A stretch of DNA of 64,000 bases, from NCBI GenBank assembly GCA_036488875.1, contig DASXGW010000002.1, positions 62,001 through 126,000 of the forward strand, in the 5' to 3' direction. The notes under the pieces were generated by a model, which worked only from the letters and a program-made list of their open reading frames with translations, did no database searches and was not told where the DNA came from. Within the stretch, counting starts at the first letter, position 1. Each line of letters begins with the position of its first letter. Below, one piece after another: positions 45,313-56,223 of this stretch. The position numbers and the translations under genes are program-made. The stretch comes from Candidatus Baltobacteraceae bacterium. GTDB lineage: Bacteria; Vulcanimicrobiota; Vulcanimicrobiia; Vulcanimicrobiales; Vulcanimicrobiaceae.

Positions 45313-45669
45313 CTAAGACTCGACCACGATCGTCAACGTCATGTCGGCGTGCCCGGGACCGCAGAAAACGCGGCAGTGTAAAACGTACGCGCCCGTTTTG
45401 ACGGGTGTGATCGTCACGTCGGTGGTTTGCCCGTCGGAAAGCAGAGTGTGCGTGATGCCGGCGTCGGGCGCGTAGAGTCCGTGGACGCCGCTGACGGAGA
45501 AGCGCAGGGTGGTGGTCTCGCCGGCGTGCAGGACGATGGTATCGGGCGAAAAGGTGCTCGGGATGACCTTGATATCGACGATGCGGACGTCACCGGCGGC
45601 GGCGTGCGCAAAGGAACATAAAAAGATGCCGGCGCCCACAAAGGGCGCGAGGACGCTCCGGAGATTCAT
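45313..45669 (-). CDS. Stand-alone CuA-type cupredoxin
   Basis: A 118-residue protein with a signal peptide and one cupredoxin domain. It has the complete CuA ligand set seen in cytochrome oxidase subunit II: His63 in 'GVHGLYAPDAGI', then C99, C103, H107 and M110 in 'HCRVFCGPGHADM'. It would carry electrons or bind copper in the periplasm. No oxidase subunit I gene is nearby. The ATG at 45669 is preferred over 45693 because a 17-bp regulatory box (45691-45707) then lies exactly 21 bp upstream, as at the response-regulator gene. Confidence 0.82.
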   Translation of the reverse strand: MNLRSVLAPFVGAGIFLCSFAHAAAGDVRIVDIKVIPSTFSPDTIVLHAGETTTLRFSVSGVHGLYAPDAGITHTLLSDGQTTDVTITPVKTGAYVLHCRVFCGPGHADMTLTIVVES

Positions 45670-45690
45670 GAATCGATTCTCGGAAGCATC

Positions 45691-45707
45691 CATGAAGGAA
45701 TCCTGAA
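45691..45707 (-). promoter_or_regulatory. Direct-repeat regulator box 1 (cupredoxin promoter)
   Basis: On the minus strand it reads TTCAGGATTCCTTCATG: two TTCA half-sites 11 bp apart. It is 21 bp from the cupredoxin ATG, with GAGAAT as a possible -10 in between. Confidence 0.55.
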
Positions 45708-45742
45708 TCGACGAGCGTTCCAAGTCTGGAGAACCCATGAAT

Positions 45743-45780: not shown

Positions 45781-46449
45781 GTGCAGATCCTACTCGTCGA
45801 GGATCATGCCGCAACCGCGCGAGCGATTCGCTCGATGCTCGAGGGACATATGTTCGCGACGAGCGTTGCGGGAGACGGCCCGGCGGCGCTCGATCAGCTT
45901 CTGCGGCATTCGCACGACGCTGCAATCGTCGACGTTGGGTTGCCCGGCATTGATGGATTCGAGGTCGTAAAACGCGCCCGTAAAGAGGGTGTCGTCATCC
46001 CCATTCTCATGCTGACTGCACGCGACGGTGTCGAGGATCGCGTTCGCGGTTTGGAGTGCGGCGCCGACGATTACTTGATCAAGCCCTTTGCCGAGCACGA
46101 GCTGCTGGCGCGTCTGCGAGCGCTGCTGCGGCGTAGTCACGGCCGGGAAGAGTCAGACGTTCTCGAGATCGGCGAGCTCCGCGTGGACGTTGGAGCGTGT
46201 GCCGCCACGTATGCCGGAGAGCCGTTGGCACTCGGACCGACGGAGTTTCGGCTATTGGAGCTGCTCGCGCGCAACGCCGGCATGACTTTGCCGCGCTCTA
46301 AAATTCTCGAGCGGTTGCGCGAAGAACGGGACGGCGCCAGCAACGTCGTGGACGTGTTCGTGAGCCAGTTGCGCAGTAAGCTTAAACGCAGCGGCGCCGA
46401 CCATCTCATCGAGACGATTTGGAACGTCGGCTACCGCCTGCGCGCGTAG
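45781..46449 (+). CDS. OmpR/PhoB-family response regulator, orphan
   Basis: A 222-residue two-domain regulator. The receiver has the phosphorylated Asp in 'AAIVDVGLPGIDGFEV', Lys in 'ADDYLIKPFAEHE' and Thr in 'LMLTARDG'. The winged-helix DNA-binding domain ends 'LIETIWNVGYRLRA'. It shows closest general likeness to the copper-responsive CusR/CopR type, which is only suggestive. No histidine kinase is adjacent. A 17-bp direct-repeat box occurs before this gene and before two neighbours, suggesting autoregulation. The GTG start may be leaderless. Confidence 0.92.
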   Translation: MQILLVEDHAATARAIRSMLEGHMFATSVAGDGPAALDQLLRHSHDAAIVDVGLPGIDGFEVVKRARKEGVVIPILMLTARDGVEDRVRGLECGADDYLIKPFAEHELLARLRALLRRSHGREESDVLEIGELRVDVGACAATYAGEPLALGPTEFRLLELLARNAGMTLPRSKILERLREERDGASNVVDVFVSQLRSKLKRSGADHLIETIWNVGYRLRA

Positions 46450-46548: not shown

Positions 46549-46953
46549 ATGAGGACCCGCGCTCTCGTGATTTCGTCGCTTGCCCTGACCCTGTTAATGC
46601 CGGTGACGGCGGCCGCCGATTCCGGTCAGACCGTAGTCGTAACGCTCAACGCGCTCAACGGCAGCGGCGAGAACGGAACGGCGACGCTGCACGCGCAAGG
46701 CAGCAAGACGGTCGTCGTTATCAAGCTTTCTAATGGATCGGGCATCGAGCAGCCCGCGCACTTTCACGTCGGCACGTGCGACAAATATCAGCCGCGTCCG
46801 CTCTATCCGCTCGAAGACGTGGTGAACGGCCAGTCGACGACGACGCTCAGCGTGCCGATCGACAAGCTCACGGGCGGCGACCTTATCGTCAACGTCCACA
46901 AGTCGTACGCCGACATCGCCACGCAAGCGGCCTGCGGAATCTCGAAGTCGTGA
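46549..46953 (+). CDS. Small secreted protein with HxH motif
   Basis: A 134-residue protein with a signal peptide cleaved after 'PVTAAA'. The mature part is beta rich and contains '[20 protein letters not shown]' and a late cysteine in '[10 protein letters not shown]', so one disulfide is possible. The HFH pattern and strand layout recall Cu/Zn superoxide dismutase- or CHRD-like folds, but this is a guess. ATG at 46549 has GGAGG five bases upstream. Its stop overlaps the next gene's GTG. Box 3 upstream suggests control by the response regulator. Confidence 0.6.
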
Positions 46954-49900
46954 ACGTCCTCTCGCGCTTTCGCGTTCCGGTGCAAATCGGGGCCGGGTTT
47001 TTCGTTGGTGTTTTGCTCTTAGGGATTGTGACGGCGCTGGCTATTTCGCGCGTTCACGTGATGCGCGCCCGGTCGGAAGAAGCGGCCGCCCTGAGCGGCA
47101 TCGCAACGTTGACGCGCGACGTGATGGCGCAGATGCTCGATCAATCCGGTGCGGTGCGCGGCTACGTCGCCACCGGCAACCGGCGTTATCTCGATTCGAT
47201 GGGTGCCGCGCAGGCGGCCGTGAGCGCGGATACCGCGAAGCTCGATAAAGTCGATCAGACCAATGCCATCGATTCGGCCCGGCTCGAGCAAGTCGACATC
47301 GAGGCCGCGCAGATCGAGAGCGACATCGATGCGGTGAAGAAGGGATTCGACAAACAGATCGCCGTCGGTCCCGGACGCGGCCCGCAGCCGATTGCGGCGA
47401 TGGACGCCACGCAACGGCTCTTCAAGAATCTGCGACGCGACAACGACGCGCTGCTGACCTATTCGACCACGCAGGCCGGCGTCGCATCCGGGCAGTTCGA
47501 CCGTGCGCAAGTCGAGCTGATGACGGCGCTGTTCGTGAGCACCGTGGCTGCCGTAATCGCGCTGATCTTTACCGCCGTGTTCATCGGCGGGAGCATCGCA
47601 CGCCGCTTGCAGGCCGTGACGCAAGCGCTGCTCGAGGTTACCGAGCAGGACGTTGCACAACTTACCGCGGCGTTCGATCGCCTCAGCGCGGGCGATCTTG
47701 CCGTTAGCTTCGAGTCGGATCGAGCGTTCATCGTCGACGAGGGGAGCGACGAGATCGGTCAGCTCGCGCAGAGCTACAACGGCGTCGCCGCCGGCCTTGG
47801 ACTGATATCGCTGGAGTTCAACAAGATGACCCAGACGCTGCGCGACGTGATGTCGGGCATCGCCGTTGCGACTGACGACCTGGCAAGCTTGAGTTCCCGC
47901 ATGTCGGCAGCCGCGAGCGAATCATCGGTCGCCGTCGATCAGATCGCGGCATCGATCGAGGGCGTAGCCGACGGCGCACGTAACCAAGCCGAACGCATCA
48001 GTGCGGCGCACGGCGAAATCAACGTGCTGACGGCGAGCGCGCAGCAAATCGCTACGGGCTCGAGCGCGCAAGCGCGCGGAGCGATCGAGGCGGTCGAAGC
48101 GGTGCGGCGCCTCGACGAGCAGATCTCCGCGTTCGCGACGCTCGGCACGACGTTAGCCGGCGCTGCGGGACACGCGTCCGACCAAGCGCAAACCGGTGAA
48201 CGGTCGGTGGCGCAGGCCGCGCACGCGATGGAGCGCATCACCGAAGCGACCAACGTGGCGCAGGCGGCCATGAAGAATCTCGAAAGCAGCTCGAGTGCCG
48301 TCTCGGATATCGTCGCGGTGATTCACGACATCGCCGATCAGACGAACTTGCTGGCCCTCAATGCGGCGATCGAAGCGGCCCGCGCCGGCGAGCAAGGTCG
48401 CGGCTTCGCCGTTGTAGCCGACGAAGTACGCAAGCTTGCGGAGAAGTCGCGCATCTCCACCGGAGAGATCAGCCGCATTCTCGACGCGATCCGCGACGAG
48501 AGCGTGCGCGCCGTGGCGGCAATGGCATCGGCCTCGGCGCAAGTGAAGACGGGCACGGCACTGTCGACCGACGCGACCAAAGCACTGGGCGCGCTCGGCG
48601 CCGCGATCTCGCAGACGAGCGACGTCGCCGCCGAGGTGGCGAGCCGTTCGGAGCACATGAAATCCGCTTCGAGCGCGCTGACGCGCAGCATCACCGGCGT
48701 TTCGCGGATCATCGACGACAACGCCGCCGCTGCGGCGCACGTCAACGAACGCAGCGAGCACGTGCAGACGACGATTCATCCAGTCGCCGAGTCGGCCGAC
48801 GCGCAGGCAAAGACCGCGCGCGAAGTTTCCGATGCGACGGGGGTGCTCTCGCAGCAGATGCAAGAGATGAACGACTCGTCGCAGAGCTCGCGCGAACAGT
48901 CGGAACGCCTACGCGAGCTGGTCGGCGTGTTCCGCAACATCGAGATGCCGGCCCTGCGCAGCGCGGTCGTTCGTATCGCGGCAATGGCGGTGCTGGCGTT
49001 GGGCGTGTTTCACCCGCGTCCCGCCGACGCGACGCAGGAGTTTGCACGGCGCACCTTGCTGTCGTGCGGCGCGTGTCACAGCGTGGGCGTAAAGCTCACG
49101 GATTTCGGTAAGGCGTTCAAAGCCGGCGGCTACGTGGTTCCCAAGCTCGTTCCGAACGGTTCGATTCCGGCAACGTTGCAGGCGCAAGCGGCCTATTTCG
49201 GTGACCCCGATCCCACGGGTTTGCCCAAGACGATCGTCGATAAGGTTATCGGGCTGGTCGGGGGGCCGATCGGTCCGCACTTTACCTACGACGGCCAGCA
49301 GTATTTCATGGATGGCGGCGTGGTGGGCGATTTGCGCGAAGCGTGGGTGGAATACACGTCGAACTGGACCGACAAAATTCCGGTCGATTTTCGCGTCGGC
49401 CAGCAAGTCATGCCGCTGCCGACCGATCCCCAGCGCTTTAAGCTGAGCGAACAAGATTACGGCGTCGCCGTGCAAACCGTCGGAGACAATCCGTTCAATC
49501 TCTACGAGCCGATGGACGGTCTGCGACTGTCGCTAGGAAAGGAAGTCAGCGGCTTCAACGCATCGATTCTGGCGTTTAGCAATCACGATCAAGGATCGCC
49601 GATCCAGCAGACCGGCACGGATTGGATGTTCGTGGGTCGCGAAACGTTCCGGCACGCGGATTTCGAGGTGTACCGGTACACCGGGCGCCGAGCAGTCGGT
49701 CCGGAGGATCAGTTTTGGCGTCAAGGGTACGGCGCCAACTATTATACCGGCCGCTTGACGGTGCACACCGCGCTGCAGGTCGGCAACGATACGAATCCGC
49801 TCGGCATCGGACAAGCGGTGGTTTCGAGCGGCGGTTACGTTGAGGGGCAGTATCAAATCGGGCGATCGATCTTCGCGTACGCGCGTGAGGACGGCGTTAA

Positions 49901-50078
49901 CGACACGGCCGGCGGATTCGGACGAGACTTCGTCTATGGGACGAGCATCTTTATCGGCCGCCCGTTCAAACTGCAGCTCGAGGACGTTGTCACGACGGCC
50001 GGCCAAACGCACAACTCGCTCGCGATCATCTTCGGTATCGGGATTAGCACGATTCACAACGGCTCGGCTTCGTACTAA
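46950..50078 (+). CDS. Chemoreceptor fused to Cyc2-like cytochrome-porin
   Basis: One open frame of 1042 residues. Residues 9-33 and about 190-214 are membrane helices around a periplasmic helical sensor. A HAMP-like region follows, then a full MCP signalling domain with the tip '[19 protein letters not shown]' (about residue 463). The MCP ends normally at 'LRELVGVFR'. Three codons later Met666 (48945) begins a typical signal peptide with a cleavage-like ADA site, then '[20 protein letters not shown]' (one CxxCH heme c site, C706-H710) and about 330 residues of alternating beta pattern ending in aromatic Tyr. The C-terminal part resembles Cyc2-type monoheme cytochrome-porins that oxidise iron at the outer membrane. 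Confidence 0.85.
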
Positions 50079-50113: not shown

Positions 50114-50572
50114 GTGCCAGATCGCAAGCATTTAGCGTCCCAACGAGGGTTTACCCTGATCGAAATGATGATCGTCGTGGCGATCATTGCGATTCTGGTG
50201 AGCATCTTAGTCCCGAATTTCATTCGCGCGAGGGCGCAAGCGCAGACCGCAGCGTGCGAGGCGAATCTCAAGGAAATCGCGACGGCACTCGAGCTGTACG
50301 AAACCGATAACGAGAAATATCCCGCGAGCGGTACGGTTAACGCGAGCAACACGGATCTGCAACCCTATCTGAAGCAAACGCCGGTCGATCCTGCCGCGGG
50401 TCCTAGCGCGTACTACACGTTTACCGTGACCGGATCCGGTGCGTCGACGGCGACGTATACGATCGTTTGCCCCGGCGTGCACGATCCCGGCACGTTACAG
50501 AACATTACGCCGAACACGACGCTCACCCACATTCAGTACACGTCGGCCGCAGGGTTTTCGGCGGCGAACTGA
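50114..50572 (+). CDS. Type IV pilin / pseudopilin
   Basis: A 152-residue prepilin. A short basic leader precedes the cleavage/N-methylation site 'RGFTLIEMMIVVAIIAILVS' (cut after Gly12). The long hydrophobic helix is followed by 'RAQAQTAACEANLKEIATAL', as in major pilins and GspG-like pseudopilins, and a C-terminal globular part with two cysteines. GTG start with GGAGGG eight bases upstream. It begins the pilus part of the cluster; a prepilin peptidase is encoded 1.2 kb downstream. Confidence 0.9.
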   Translation: MPDRKHLASQRGFTLIEMMIVVAIIAILVSILVPNFIRARAQAQTAACEANLKEIATALELYETDNEKYPASGTVNASNTDLQPYLKQTPVDPAAGPSAYYTFTVTGSGASTATYTIVCPGVHDPGTLQNITPNTTLTHIQYTSAAGFSAAN

Positions 50573-50585
50573 CGTGGTGGACGTT

Positions 50586-51230
50586 ATGAGCGCCGCACTG
50601 CGCGACGCGGGCAGCGCATCGGTCGCCGCGCCGGCGCTTGCGTTCGCGGCGGGAACCGCATCCAGTTTCGGCCCGTGCATCGGTCCGCGAATACTGACGC
50701 TCGCGGCGCTGTGCTCGCGGCACCGAGGCGCGGCGCGTTGGATTGCCGCTGGAATCTTTGCCACCGGACTGTGTGCCGGCTACGCCATCGTCGCTACAGT
50801 TGCGGGTGCGGCAGGCTTGGCGTCCGCGCTGTCGCCGTCGATCTATCGAATCTTGGCGATCGCCGCTGCGGCCGGCGGCGTCTGGACGCTCGTACGCGGG
50901 CCGCAACGGGCTTGTTGCCGCGGCGAAGGCCGAGTTAACGGCGGTGTGGGATTCTTTGCCGGCTTAGTGTCGGCGAGCGTAACGTCGCCGTGCTGCGGTC
51001 CGATCGGTGCCGCGTTGGCGGGCGTCGCGGCCGCGGCGGCCGGTCCCAGATACGCAGCAGCGATCGCCGGCGCGTTCGCGCTGGGTCACGCTTTACCGCT
51101 GGTGGCGGTTGCAGCCGGCTCGATGCGGTTCGGCGGCGCCGTCACGCGAGCGGTCGAAAGCGGCGCGGGCGTAACGATTTCGGGCGCCCTGATGCTTGCG
51201 ACCGGTACGTATTACGCGGTGCTCGCGTGA
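50586..51230 (+). CDS. CcdA/DsbD-like transmembrane thiol transporter
   Basis: A 214-residue membrane protein with about six helices. It has internal symmetry and paired cysteine motifs 'SSFGPCIGPRILTL' and 'SVTSPCCGPIGAALAG', typical of CcdA, which passes reducing power across the inner membrane for cytochrome c maturation or disulfide repair. It could serve the CxxCH heme site encoded just upstream; this is inferred from position. The ATG at 50586 is chosen; GTG codons at 50574 and 50577 are alternatives. Confidence 0.75.
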   Translation: MSAALRDAGSASVAAPALAFAAGTASSFGPCIGPRILTLAALCSRHRGAARWIAAGIFATGLCAGYAIVATVAGAAGLASALSPSIYRILAIAAAAGGVWTLVRGPQRACCRGEGRVNGGVGFFAGLVSASVTSPCCGPIGAALAGVAAAAAGPRYAAAIAGAFALGHALPLVAVAAGSMRFGGAVTRAVESGAGVTISGALMLATGTYYAVLA

Positions 51231-51763
51231 GGGAGATTCCGGCGGCGCGGCGCATGGCGCTGGCACTCACCGGCATCGTCCTTTCCGGTTACTTGGTGCG
51301 TCCGCAGATTTCCCAAGCGCTCGTGATACGCGGCGACGAGCGGCTTTATCGCGGCAGCGCAAGGGAGGCGCTCGGGTATTACAAGCGCGGGATCGACGCG
51401 GATCCGCTCAACGCCTCCGCAGTCGATCGGTTCGCCTTCGGCGCGGTGAGCCTTCGGGAAAAAACGGTCGTTCGCGAAGCGATCGCGGCGTCGTCAGCGT
51501 ACCTTCGCCGGCGTCCGGCCGACGACGTCGTGCGCATGGATCGCGCGATGGCGTTTCGGTTGCTGGGCGATTGGCGCCACGCTGCGACAGACTTCGAGCG
51601 CGTTGGCGAACGGGAACGCGACGCGACGGCGCTGACCTTTGCCGGTTATGCCGCCGACAAGCTCCACGAGCATCGCCGCGCGCGTGCCTTATGGCGCAAA
51701 GCGCTGACCGTCGATCGTAACTTTCGCGCCGCGCTTCACGCGCTTGGGAGTAACGCGTCGTGA
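51227..51763 (+). CDS. TPR membrane-anchored protein
   Basis: A 178-residue protein with an N-terminal membrane segment ('MALALTGIVLSGYLV') followed by TPR-like helices ('ERLYRGSAREALGYYKRGID', 'RAMAFRLLGDWRHAATDFER', 'HRRARALWRKALTVDRNFRA'). It may play the part of the PilF/PilW pilotin or another pilus assembly scaffold, but the match is only to the repeat class. GTG start overlapping the CcdA-like gene by 4 bp. Confidence 0.65.
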   Translation: MREIPAARRMALALTGIVLSGYLVRPQISQALVIRGDERLYRGSAREALGYYKRGIDADPLNASAVDRFAFGAVSLREKTVVREAIAASSAYLRRRPADDVVRMDRAMAFRLLGDWRHAATDFERVGERERDATALTFAGYAADKLHEHRRARALWRKALTVDRNFRAALHALGSNAS

Positions 51764-52362
51764 GCGTCGTTGCGGCGTCCCTCGAGACCGTTTTAACACT
51801 GAGCGTTCTGGCGGCAATCGCTTATGAAAGGATGCACGCGAACGGCTTGAAAGCGCGGGTGCTCGACGCTCGTGCGATGACGATAGCGGTCGCGGCGACG
51901 CTCGCACGCGGCTGGTTGGCCCGGCGCGGCGTCGGTGGAATCGAGACGTCGATCGCCTTCGGTATCGCCGCCGTTGCCGCAATTACCGATCTCCACTGCG
52001 GATATGTGTTCGACCGCGTACTGCTCGCCGGGAGCGTTGCGTTGATGGCCGCGGAGGCGGCGCACGGAAGGCTGAGTTTTGCGCTGGAAGGCGGTGCGGT
52101 CGCGGCGGCGGCGCTTGCCGTGCCGTGGGCGGTGACCCGCGCGCGCGGTCTGGGGTTTGGCGATGTAAAGCTCGCGGGCGTCCTGGGTTGTGCGCTCGGA
52201 CCGTACGACGCGATGCGGGCACTGTGGTTCGCGTTTGTGATCGGAGCGCTCGTCGCGGTTGCGTGCATCGTGACGCGCCGCCGCTCGCGCGGTGACGCGA
52301 TGCCGTTCGCGCCGTTCGTCGCACTGGGGGCGGTGATGTCGGCGGGAAGCGCGGCGTGGTGA
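51760..52362 (+). CDS. Minimal prepilin peptidase (A24 family)
   Basis: A 200-residue polytopic protein with both catalytic aspartates of type IV prepilin peptidases: 'AITDLHCGYVFDRVL' and 'GLGFGDVKLAGVLG' (GxGDxK). It lacks the N-terminal zinc/methyltransferase domain of full PilD, so it would cleave but not N-methylate, as in CpaA/TadV-type enzymes. It would process the pilin encoded upstream. Overlaps both neighbours by 4-7 bp. Confidence 0.82.
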   Translation: MSVVAASLETVLTLSVLAAIAYERMHANGLKARVLDARAMTIAVAATLARGWLARRGVGGIETSIAFGIAAVAAITDLHCGYVFDRVLLAGSVALMAAEAAHGRLSFALEGGAVAAAALAVPWAVTRARGLGFGDVKLAGVLGCALGPYDAMRALWFAFVIGALVAVACIVTRRRSRGDAMPFAPFVALGAVMSAGSAAW

Positions 52363-53303
52363 AAATGCGGTCGATTCCGTTGGGCGTCGATATCGGCAAG
52401 ACGCGGATACGCGTCGCCGCGGCCGTCCGAGCGGCGTCGGGAGCCGTGGAGCTCGTCGGCGTCGCGTCGCGCGAGGCGCCGGACGAGCCCGAAGCAGCGG
52501 CGACGGTTCTCGACGATCTTCGTCGCGAGCTCGGAACGCGCGAGCGCCGCTGCGTGTTGTCACTGCCGGCCAGCGCCGGCGTGCTAAAGGTCTTGCGCTT
52601 TCCGAAGATGAGCGATGCCGAGCGTCGCAACGCGGCGCTCTTTGAGTCCGAGCGTATCGTTTCGTGGAACTCCAAGGAGATCGCCACCGTGGTTCGCGCG
52701 CATTGGGTGAACGTGCGTGACGGGCTCGTTGCAATCGGCGTCGCGCGCGAGGAGGCGCTGCGCGCGCGGGTTGCGTGTGCCCGTCGGGCCGGGTTGTCGG
52801 TTGCCGGCGTCGATCACGATGCGTGCGCGATGCGCCGAGCGTTTCCGTTCGCCGATGCAGTGCTCGACGTCGGATGCGAATCGTCGAGCTTGCACGTCTT
52901 CTCAGCGTCGGGCCCGCTGTCGGTGACCATTCCGGCGGGCGGCGCGGAGGTGACGGCCGGCATCTGCCGCGATCTCGGGATCGATTCCACCGCGGCCGAG
53001 CGCCGAAAGCGCATCTTGGGAACCGCGGGCGCCGGCGAGGGAGCGCGCGACGCGTTCGTCGCACGCGTCGCCGCAACGATTCACGACGTGCGCGAACGCC
53101 ACCCCGTTCGCCGTCTTGCCATGACGGGAAACGGCGCGCGTTTGCCGGGACTTGCGGAGTTCGTCGAAGCCGCGGTCGGGGCGATGGTGGACGTCCCCGT
53201 CAGCGACTTACTGCGCGTTGCCGCGTATCCCGATGACGTCGCGCGCTCGGCCGCTCCGGATTGGACGCTCGCAGCGTCGCTTGCCGCATGGGAAACACCG
53301 TGA
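52356..53303 (+). CDS. pilM: Type IV pilus assembly ATPase-like protein PilM
   Basis: A 315-residue actin-like fold protein. It has 'LGVDIGKTRIRVAAAV' (phosphate-1 loop), 'ADAVLDVGCESSSLHVFS' and 'RRLAMTGNGARLPGLAEFVE', as in PilM/GspL cytoplasmic components. It would bind the N-terminus of PilN on the inner side of the membrane. GTG start overlaps the peptidase gene; ATG at 52365 is an alternative. First gene of a pilMNOPQ-like series. Confidence 0.85.
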   Translation: MVKMRSIPLGVDIGKTRIRVAAAVRAASGAVELVGVASREAPDEPEAAATVLDDLRRELGTRERRCVLSLPASAGVLKVLRFPKMSDAERRNAALFESERIVSWNSKEIATVVRAHWVNVRDGLVAIGVAREEALRARVACARRAGLSVAGVDHDACAMRRAFPFADAVLDVGCESSSLHVFSASGPLSVTIPAGGAEVTAGICRDLGIDSTAAERRKRILGTAGAGEGARDAFVARVAATIHDVRERHPVRRLAMTGNGARLPGLAEFVEAAVGAMVDVPVSDLLRVAAYPDDVARSAAPDWTLAASLAAWETP

Positions 53304-53848
53304 TTCGCTTCGACTACCTGCACGACCCGCCGTCGCGGTTATGGGGAACCATCCGTACCGCGCGGTTGCCGCGGCGACTTCACAACCTCACCGTGGCGTT
53401 CGCCGCGGTTGCGGTGCTGCTCGGCGGCGCGGCGGCGATCGAACGGGGACGCGTGCGGGAAGCGCAACGCGTACGAGCTGAGGCGCAAGACCGCTTCGAA
53501 CGCAGCCGTGCGGATCTCGAGCGATTTCGTCTACAGTGGCGTCAAATCGACGACCTGATCGCCGAGGATCGAAGATTGCGCGAGATTCGGCTTTCCGGAA
53601 GCCGCGTGGCCGAGCGACTGGCCGCGATCGGCGATCGGTTCCCAAACGGCGTAAGCATCGATTCGCTCCGAGCCGCGGGCGAAGAGTACGCCGTTAAAGG
53701 GAAGGCTCCGACCATCGACGCGGTGAGCGGCGTGTTGAGCCGAATCGTCGCGAGTAGCGCGCTGCCGCATCCCGGTATCGTCCGCATTGCGAAGGATTCC
53801 GGCGTTCTCGCAGGCTTCACGTTCGAGTTCAGCGCGGGTGCTCCGTGA
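53288..53848 (+). CDS. pilN: PilN-like pilus assembly protein
   Basis: A 186-residue bitopic membrane protein: a short cytoplasmic N-terminus, one helix at about residues 40-58, a coiled coil ('EAQDRFERSRADLERFRLQW') and a ferredoxin-like C-terminus ('VAERLAAIGDRFPNGVSIDS'). PilN joins PilM to PilO. ATG at 53288 overlaps pilM by 16 bp; a GTG at 53300 that overlaps the pilM stop (GTGA) is an equally good start. Confidence 0.78.
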   Translation: MGNTVIRFDYLHDPPSRLWGTIRTARLPRRLHNLTVAFAAVAVLLGGAAAIERGRVREAQRVRAEAQDRFERSRADLERFRLQWRQIDDLIAEDRRLREIRLSGSRVAERLAAIGDRFPNGVSIDSLRAAGEEYAVKGKAPTIDAVSGVLSRIVASSALPHPGIVRIAKDSGVLAGFTFEFSAGAP

Positions 53849-54414
53849 AGGCTGCATGGCTTGCAGTTCTCGCGTTGGCGATCGCCGGCTATGCCGGCGT
53901 CGTCGCGCCGGCCGAACGCACCGTTCGATCGCTGACGCGCGAAAGCCAAGATCTCTACGAACTGGCAAACCGCAACGAGGCGGTGCTTCGGCAGCGCGCG
54001 TCGCTGGTGCGCCTGCGCGACCGCGTTCGACGGGATTTGGACGGTTTGGGCGCGGAGAATACGCCGGCTAAAGCCGCGTTAGCGCTTATCGAACTGCTCG
54101 ATCGAGTGGGAAAAGAGCGTGACGTAGCCGTCGGCACGTTCGCGCCGGACGAAACGGCTGAAAGCGGCGATGCGCAGCAAATCTCGCTCGCGATTCACGG
54201 CTCGTATGAAGCGGTGCTGCCGTTTCTGAGCGATTTGACGCGCCACCGTCCGTTGGTGGAAGTCGAGAGCGCGGAGCTGCAGCGGCAATCCGATACGAGC
54301 GATGGTTCCGAAATCGACGGCCAGGTTCGCGTGGTGCTGTATCATACGGCAGCCGGTTTCATTCACACGATTTCGACGGAGGTGCATCCGCATGATACGA
54401 CCGCTCACGACTAA
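53845..54414 (+). CDS. pilO: PilO-like pilus assembly protein
   Basis: A 189-residue protein with an N-terminal membrane helix, a coiled-coil ('SLTRESQDLYELANRNEAVL') and a small ferredoxin-like domain ('ISLAIHGSYEAVLPFLSDLT'). It would form heterodimers with PilN in the inner-membrane platform. GTG start overlapping pilN by 4 bp. Confidence 0.75.
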   Translation: MKAAWLAVLALAIAGYAGVVAPAERTVRSLTRESQDLYELANRNEAVLRQRASLVRLRDRVRRDLDGLGAENTPAKAALALIELLDRVGKERDVAVGTFAPDETAESGDAQQISLAIHGSYEAVLPFLSDLTRHRPLVEVESAELQRQSDTSDGSEIDGQVRVVLYHTAAGFIHTISTEVHPHDTTAHD

Positions 54415-54868
54415 TCAGCGACGCAGCATCGCGCGCAGCTCGCTGGCGGGCTGCATCGTTTCGTTGCTGCTGCTTCCACTGGCCGTGCCGCCAAGCACGT
54501 CGGCCGGCACTACGACCGGCATCGCCGCAGCGTGGCGCGAGCTGCCTTCGATTCCGCCGCCGCTGAGCTATCCGGCGCTTACGATTCGCCACAATCCGTT
54601 CGTGCGACCGCTGCCGCCGATTGCCGGCGACGACGACGCCTTGCCGCCCGACTTGGTCCTGCCGCCGAACGCGGGGATCGCCTCGCCGCCGCGCGTGCAG
54701 GCCCTGATCTTGGGTGCCGTGCCCAAAGCGCTCGTGGAGGTCGAGGGCCACACTGCGATCGTCGGTGTCGGAACGAAGCTCGAAGGGTCGGCGATCGTGC
54801 GAATCGACTCACGCGGACTCGAGCTCGATAACGGCGAGCGGCTGGAACTCGAAGGGCGGCGTCCGTGA
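54392..54868 (+). CDS. PilP-like periplasmic protein
   Basis: A 158-residue protein with a signal-anchor ('SLAGCIVSLLLLPLAVPP') and a proline-rich linker. A small beta domain follows, with 'RVQALILGAVPKALVEVEGH' and 'DSRGLELDNGERLELEGRR', as in PilP/GspC homology regions that link the platform to the secretin. Sequence conservation is weak and the call rests mainly on position between pilO and pilQ. Confidence 0.6.
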   Translation: MIRPLTTNQRRSIARSSLAGCIVSLLLLPLAVPPSTSAGTTTGIAAAWRELPSIPPPLSYPALTIRHNPFVRPLPPIAGDDDALPPDLVLPPNAGIASPPRVQALILGAVPKALVEVEGHTAIVGVGTKLEGSAIVRIDSRGLELDNGERLELEGRRP

Positions 54869-56223
54869 CATATTCCCGCATGGTGCCGATGCTGCTGCTG
54901 GCGGTTCTCTTGTGCGCGGCCGTCGAACGCAGCGCAATAACGATCGACGCTCACGACGTCGACATTAGCGACGTGATTTCGTTGTTAGCGGCGGAGTCAG
55001 GCGTGAACTTGGTCACGGATCGATCGGTCAAACCAGAACGCATCACGGTACACTTGCACGACGTCAGTTTCGAGGAGGCACTGCAGGCGATTACCGTCGC
55101 GCACGGGCTGTCGGTGCGCCGCGAAGGCTCGATTCTCATCGTCGCGAGTGGCCAGTCTCAGAGTACCGCGAACGCTACCGCGGTTTTTGCACTGCACCAC
55201 GCGGAGCCCGAAGACGTGGCGCGCGAGCTCACCGCGGTTCTGCCGCAAGGAACCGTCGTGGTTCCCGACAAGCGCACGGGCGCGCTCTTCGTCGGCGGCG
55301 ACGCGTCGGTCGCGAGCCGTGCGCGCACGCTGGTTGGCGCGTTGGATTCCGCGCGGTTATCGGAGGCGGGCGGCTCGCGAACCACATCGTATCCTCTGCG
55401 GTACCTACGGCCCGATGATGCCGTCGCCAAGCTCAAGGCGCTGTTGCCCGACGGCAACGTGCTCGCCGACGAGGAGCAGAACGCGGTGCTGGTGTCGGGC
55501 GGGGAGCGCGTGCAGTCGGTTGCCAGGGGATTGCTCGCGCAGATCGACGTCGCAAGCCCGCAGGTCCTGTTCGAGGTCAAAGTCGCCGACCTGACGCCCG
55601 TGAACGACTCGAGCAACGTCGGTTTCGAGTTCGGTGGGTTGGATCTGACCGGCCAGCCGCTTCCGGGTGCGGCGACCTATGCCTTTACGACGGGAACGAT
55701 ACCGGTCAACGCCCGCCTGAACTTGCTGGTGAGCAAAGGCCACGCGCAGATTCTGGCGACACCGAAGCTCGTGACGATTAACAACAAGGAAGCGAATCTC
55801 ATGATCGGAGAGACCTACCCGATCGTCTATAGTACCTCGGTACTCGGTGGACAAAACGTGCAATACGTGGATATCGGGGTTCATCTTCGCTTGACGCCGA
55901 CTATCGGCTCCGACGGCAGCGTCACGGCGGACCTCCATCCGGAGTACAGCGAGCTCGTCGGCTTTACGTCGACCGGCTATCCGATCGTCGCCAATCGAAA
56001 GATCGATTCGACATTGCGGGTCCAAGACGGTTCCACGATCGTGCTCGGCGGCCTCATGCGCGACACAAGCAGTGAGACCATCGATAAGGTTCCGGGCCTC
56101 GGCGATATTCCGATTATCGGCGGTTTGTTCAAGAACAAGCAAACCAATCACGAACGCGACGAGATCGTATTCTTGATTACGCCGCACGTTATCTATCCAG
56201 GCAGCACCCCACCGGCTAAGTAG
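54865..56223 (+). CDS. pilQ: PilQ-like secretin
   Basis: A 452-residue outer-membrane secretin. It has a signal peptide, an STN/N0 domain ('ITIDAHDVDISDVISLLAAE'), two NolW-like modules ('ATAVFALHHAEPEDVAREL', 'TSYPLRYLRPDDAVAKLKAL') and the C-terminal secretin domain with 'SSETIDKVPGLGDIPIIGGL'. It is shorter than proteobacterial PilQ because AMIN domains are absent. It implies an outer membrane. GTG start. No pilB, pilT or pilC lies in the window. Confidence 0.9.
   Translation: MTYSRMVPMLLLAVLLCAAVERSAITIDAHDVDISDVISLLAAESGVNLVTDRSVKPERITVHLHDVSFEEALQAITVAHGLSVRREGSILIVASGQSQSTANATAVFALHHAEPEDVARELTAVLPQGTVVVPDKRTGALFVGGDASVASRARTLVGALDSARLSEAGGSRTTSYPLRYLRPDDAVAKLKALLPDGNVLADEEQNAVLVSGGERVQSVARGLLAQIDVASPQVLFEVKVADLTPVNDSSNVGFEFGGLDLTGQPLPGAATYAFTTGTIPVNARLNLLVSKGHAQILATPKLVTINNKEANLMIGETYPIVYSTSVLGGQNVQYVDIGVHLRLTPTIGSDGSVTADLHPEYSELVGFTSTGYPIVANRKIDSTLRVQDGSTIVLGGLMRDTSSETIDKVPGLGDIPIIGGLFKNKQTNHERDEIVFLITPHVIYPGSTPPAK

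Follow-up and report, generated by a model that had tools for sequence, protein, structure and literature searches.

Can a chemoreceptor (MCP) and a Cyc2-like cytochrome-porin be encoded by one gene, and how would a single translation product then supply two different membranes? The question is raised by a long open frame in a 64,000-nucleotide stretch of a Candidatus Baltobacteraceae genome (contig DASXGW010000002.1; hereafter the window), for which an initial annotation had proposed either a true fusion or two genes whose stop codon was lost or misread. Feature coordinates within the window are collected in Table 1.

Table 1. Features of the fused gene and its surroundings, in window coordinates
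Feature	Position	Strand	Basis
Periplasmic cupredoxin, divergent neighbour, 1.2 kb upstream of fusion	45313..45738	-	Pfam PF13473
OmpR-type response regulator, upstream	45781..46449	+	Pfam; conserved in sister
Small secreted protein, conserved HFHxGTC; TGA overlaps GTG start of fusion	46549..46953	+	GGAGG before ATG 46549, likely start
Fused gene, CHASE3-HAMP-MCP receptor then cytochrome-porin-like protein	46950..50078	+	Open frame; gapless in sister L032
Membrane helix 1 of receptor, residues 14-32	46989..47045	+	Hydropathy
CHASE3 periplasmic sensor domain, residues 55-173	47112..47468	+	Pfam PF05227, 29.7 bits vs cut-off 28
Membrane helix 2 of receptor, residues 194-212	47529..47585	+	Hydropathy
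HAMP domain, residues 235-281	47652..47792	+	Pfam PF00672, over cut-off
MCP signalling domain, canonical tip, residues 405-587	48162..48710	+	Pfam PF00015, E 5.6e-39
Signal-peptide-like internal segment, residues 666-694, helix 669-687, ends ADA	48945..49031	+	Hydropathy; resembles N-terminal signal peptide of separate genes
Predicted signal peptidase I site ADA|T, residues 692-695	49023..49034	+	Sequence; ASA|T in sister; cleavage inferred
CGACH c-type heme site, residues 706-710	49065..49079	+	Both Cys and His invariant in 35 family members
Predicted outer-membrane barrel region, residues 741-1042, C-terminal Tyr	49170..50075	+	Tyr ending in relatives; weak periodicity
Type IV pilus-type cluster, downstream	50114..56223	+	Pfam; same order in sister

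One frame in two species

Translation bears out the earlier claim of a stop-free frame, which runs from GTG at 46950 to TAA at 50076-50078 over 1042 sense codons with zero internal stops, and the ATG at 48945 (residue 666), the CGACH motif and the C-terminal Tyr that had been annotated are each present in it. By hydropathy the 1042-residue product has three membrane-type segments (14-32, 194-212 and 669-687). The receptor half has the attributes by which an MCP is recognised, namely a signalling domain with its tip and two helices flanking a periplasmic sensor, followed by a HAMP domain; where a complete MCP with two helices, a HAMP-like region and a canonical tip had been described, Pfam identifies CHASE3, HAMP and MCPsignal domains. 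The second part of the frame has no Pfam or NCBIfam match.

The host genome (3.7 Mb in 15 contigs) contains five MCP-domain matches within four frames and, on contig C10, genes for CheW, CheA, CheC and a CheY-type receiver protein beside FlhA, with several flagellins encoded elsewhere; the CheA/CheW system and flagellar genes provide a plausible output for the receptor. On another contig of this genome (C13, 371000-378000), a 1042-aa frame (L137:2483-5608) places a DctP-type solute-binding domain between two MCP signalling domains; Pfam finds no HAMP domain in this candidate frame, which is read from one assembly.

The initial annotation had proposed looking for homologues with the same junction in related genomes, and one was found in the sister species (G041, locus L032), a public MAG and the sole other genome of the genus examined, where the ADA end of the internal segment is kept as ASA. 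All 1042 residues of the fused gene align with the sister without a gap, at 75% identity in the receptor half (93% in the tip region, residues 451-510) and 79% in the cytochrome half. Both halves are under purifying selection: against the sister, dN/dS is 0.143 in the receptor part and 0.137 in the cytochrome part, at a dS of about 1.2. Because homology continues in the same frame across the junction and the identical indel-free arrangement recurs in a second species, the frame is, as judged from these alignments, more than chance read-through of GC-rich DNA.

The fusion is narrowly distributed. Within the named genome collection, a scan recovered it from the sister MAG only, and a search of viral contigs and plasmids returned no relatives. 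A profile of the 35-member cytochrome-porin family matches 90 of the 149 genomes profiled in the phylum (well over 100 places among the matches listed), with the match lying inside a frame exceeding 1100 codons in both genomes of this genus and in no other, and no further MCP/cytochrome fusion was seen across the 149 beyond these two species. Long receptor frames in G043 (962 aa) and G093 (1374 and 837 aa) were considered as further fusions and rejected; their extra length lies upstream of the receptor, has no Pfam match and is consistent with an open non-gene frame in GC-rich DNA.

Relation of the C-terminal part to Cyc2

Cyc2, an Fe(II) oxidase, is defined by a signal peptide, one CxxCH with a preceding AXPXFAR[Q/K][T/Y] and a later PXL, and a predicted 16-stranded barrel, and published searches applied a length filter of at least 365 aa (PMC8406198). 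The C-terminal part of the fused protein, which is compared with Cyc2 by its sequence, has the single CGACH near its N-terminus, a long region of ~300 residues following it and an internal segment that would act as the signal peptide. Of the upstream motif FAR and T are present just before the heme site, while P and Q/K are absent, and the PXL position reads VKL, compared with AKL in the sister and with PHL or PQL in many relatives. Counted from ATG 48945 this part is 377 aa long, or 348 aa when mature, against the published filter of 365, and unlike Cyc2 it sits behind a receptor. Other members of the family in this phylum match the Cyc2 head closely (for example ALPIFARQYQVSCAKCHSVIPHL in G090), and some match AXPXFAR[Q/K][T/Y] fully, as in L014 (ALPIFARQY) and L023 (AIPVFARQY). 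The earlier designation 'Cyc2-like' thus stands for the wider family, which has the Cyc2 head motif, but holds only in part for the fused protein, which misses two published motifs; since these elements are lacking we do not file the protein as Cyc2 and regard it as Cyc2-like by family, on a diverged branch. A Cyc2-like gene has been reported from an Eremiobacterota MAG (PMC8357290). The host carries in addition a second, distant, free-standing cytochrome-porin gene (L002 / L046, contig C4, 46325-47455) with a more typical Cyc2-like head, AIPIFAQRYGLRCTACHSVLPEL.

Signs of a barrel come from the sequence pattern. Outer-membrane barrels often terminate in an aromatic residue, and Tyr is the last residue in 31 of 38 relatives. 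A two-residue periodicity of hydropathy lies weakly above shuffled sequences (p 0.03 and 0.08 by two measures). Searching solved structures and Pfam with a profile from the 35-member family alignment gave no porin match, and an AlphaFold2 model, built from an alignment of two sequences, reached a pLDDT of 28. The C-terminal part is probably a Cyc2-like outer-membrane cytochrome-porin, with the barrel predicted.

Origin of the fusion and fate of its product

Separate counterparts of both halves occur in genus g37 of the same family, where four genomes (G087, G089, G091 and G096) carry a homologous receptor and cytochrome-porin in the same order as in the fused gene and, where the contig shows it, behind the same upstream secreted-protein gene. 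They extend the claim that the two functions are 'genetically tied', as receptor and cytochrome are here overlapping but separate genes: the receptor stop and cytochrome start share ATGA in G087 and G096, GTGA in G091 and TGATG in G089, and a strong Shine-Dalgarno precedes the cytochrome start in G087 (-11.1 kcal/mol) and G096 (-11.9 kcal/mol). These pairs differ from the fused gene in lying in different frames, with the strong Shine-Dalgarno in two of them, whereas the fused gene is one frame without such a site. In the cytochrome tree (40 rows), a branch with 95/96 support separates the fused and linked members from the rest, and a branch with 99/100 support does so in the receptor tree (30 rows), the two fused sequences being placed beside the linked g37 ones in both; both trees were midpoint-rooted, so whether this group is called a clade depends on the root. 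The gene of this genus is thus, as these sequences read, a translationally coupled pair of MCP and Cyc2-like cytochrome-porin that became a single gene. Since the g37 genes lie in different frames, the fusion would have needed a small indel near the overlap, beyond mere loss of the stop.

At the junction, the second signal-peptide-like segment and ADA site described earlier are present and positioned for a possible split by signal peptidase. The signal peptide of the separate cytochrome in G091 (MRSRFAFGLLAAVLLLAVHPGPADA) is recognisably like the internal segment of the fused protein. Cleaved signal peptides usually evolve fast yet keep their end, and the internal segment has this pattern, with a dN/dS of about 0.49 against the sister and a retained AxA end (ADA / ASA). 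Of the potential start codons, ATG 48945 is replaced by GTT in the sister and ATG 48984 by ATC, and the only start-type codons common to both species near the junction are ATG 48867, which lies inside the receptor, and GTG 48927. ATG 48945 lacks a Shine-Dalgarno (+0.6 kcal/mol), and neither ATG 48867 nor GTG 48927 has one beyond the background range of the gene.

We favour a polyprotein, in which signal peptidase would divide a precursor into a receptor for the inner membrane and a cytochrome-porin for the outer one, and consider this the likely fate of the product. With no stop between the halves, any ribosome that completes the receptor has to read on into the cytochrome-porin. Once inserted into the inner membrane, the receptor would have a cytoplasmic signalling domain; export would resume at the third hydrophobic segment, oriented N-in, with its Arg residues on the cytoplasmic side and the cytochrome outside. 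Signal peptidase I would then cleave after ADA (ADA|T) to free the cytochrome, heme would be attached in the periplasm and the barrel inserted into the outer membrane, giving equal amounts of receptor and cytochrome-porin. The cut signal would stay on the receptor as a third membrane anchor, which is possible because MCP signalling hairpins return toward the membrane. Cytochrome b/c1 of Bradyrhizobium is made in the way proposed here, as the polyprotein FbcH, in which one gene with an internal signal peptide yields a precursor divided by signal peptidase; there the partners are subunits of one respiratory complex, whereas here they would be a receptor and a porin. A literature search for an FbcH-type precedent or an MCP-cytochrome fusion returned no paper directly describing either.

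Three other accounts of the frame have to be weighed. An assembly or sequencing error, with loss of a stop or of the frame, might have merged two separate genes, and relatives in another genus do carry two overlapping genes that a one-base error could join. The same frame recurs without indels, however, in a different species with a separate genome record and 79% identity in the C-terminal part, where the separate start codon and Shine-Dalgarno have gone. This finding largely refutes such an error and practically excludes the lost or misread stop codon that the initial annotation had offered as its alternative. With both halves constrained, ATG 48945 not conserved and no Shine-Dalgarno above background at the conserved start-type codons, an error in the window assembly is very improbable, and the 'true fusion' then suggested is almost certainly a genuine fused gene of this genus. 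That gene might still give two products, if translation from an internal start (GTG 48927 or ATG 48945) supplied most of the cytochrome-porin and the long protein were a by-product. GTG 48927 is conserved as GTG in both species and would yield a signal peptide of workable length, but ATG 48945 is unconserved, the conserved internal starts have no Shine-Dalgarno above background, and ribosomes arriving from upstream would still meet no stop before the cytochrome; we consider internal initiation unlikely. Slightly less probable again is an uncut fusion, whose third membrane helix, geometrically possible given the returning hairpins, would tether the cytochrome-porin domain on the periplasmic side of the inner membrane, where it would serve the receptor as an additional sensory or redox module. 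Periplasmic c-type heme is indeed carried by some receptors (Geobacter GSU0582/GSU0935, PMC3460858). Against an uncut product, the AxA site is kept amid a fast-evolving segment, a pattern known from cleaved signal peptides, the C-terminal part is similar to proteins that most relatives export as free-standing products with a signal peptide of their own, and a heme head of ~45 residues is unlikely to span from inner to outer membrane if the remainder is an outer-membrane barrel.

Gene neighbourhood and possible function

The secreted-protein gene directly upstream keeps that position elsewhere, preceding the fusion in the sister and the receptor gene in g37. Its product also has a conserved NVHKS pattern, with relatives in 97 of 103 genomes of the order; a fold search gave no significant match, the weak resemblance being to Cu/Zn superoxide dismutase folds (from a poor model based on a two-sequence alignment). 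In g37 the module takes three forms: secreted protein-MCP-cytochrome, secreted protein-MCP without a cytochrome (G092, G093 and one G091 copy) and secreted protein-cytochrome without an MCP (G091 and G092). The parts thus tend to occur in combination, and this speaks for a functional relation, albeit a loose one. At L132:1962-7220 (G091 contig C396), a related pair of secreted protein and MCP that lacks the cytochrome-porin adjoins genes for cytochrome c oxidase subunits, and a related MCP locus, L038, has cytochrome c, a cupredoxin and a second Cyc2-like gene as neighbours. The downstream pilus-type cluster encodes a prepilin, a DsbD/CcdA-like protein, a TPR protein, PilD, PilM, PilN, PilO, a PilP-like protein and PilQ. 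No such cluster was found beside the g37 receptor/cytochrome pair, and the linkage to type IV pili was dropped as a functional clue because the cluster follows the gene in this genus only.

Electrons could move through the cytochrome-porin between the cell surface and carriers in the periplasm, with the receptor perhaps signalling the redox outcome to CheA. A dedicated redox or electron-donor taxis along these lines is plausible but less likely than not, and it is similarly tentative that one precursor serves to match motility control to electron uptake one to one, with the cut signal as third receptor anchor. The fusion may instead be a neutral accident of overlapping genes that has no meaning for taxis, with the cytochrome-porin acting alone in respiration or metal handling. 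This account, which is compatible with the polyprotein reading, is a reasonable possibility at somewhat less than even chances; the looseness of the module, in which secreted protein and MCP or secreted protein and cytochrome occur alone in relatives, and the mostly free-standing state of the family members speak for it. On the other side, MCP and cytochrome are linked across two genera and both parts are constrained in the fusion genus, while related MCP loci adjoin the cytochrome c oxidase genes (L132) or the cytochrome c, cupredoxin and Cyc2-like genes (L038) noted above.

Known systems offer partial parallels. Desulfovibrio DcrA is a heme-containing chemoreceptor with the heme in its periplasmic sensor domain. 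Geobacter GSU0582 and GSU0935 (PMC3460858) resemble the fused gene in that a single gene product includes both a chemoreceptor and a c-type heme, but they carry the heme within the periplasmic sensor domain, whereas here it comes after the signalling domain and an internal export signal. In Shewanella congregation outer-membrane cytochromes cooperate with the MCP SO_2240 (PMC5789149), a functional link that differs from the one proposed here in involving no gene fusion, multiheme cytochromes, and electron acceptors instead of donors.

Ties at the level of gene structure between a receptor and the metabolic machine on which it might report are rare. If cut as predicted, the product would be an unusual bacterial polyprotein whose parts end up in different membranes, and their fixed linkage would suggest a specific, testable input for the receptor. 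The occurrence of separate overlapping genes in one genus and of the fusion in another shows a route by which such a polyprotein can arise.
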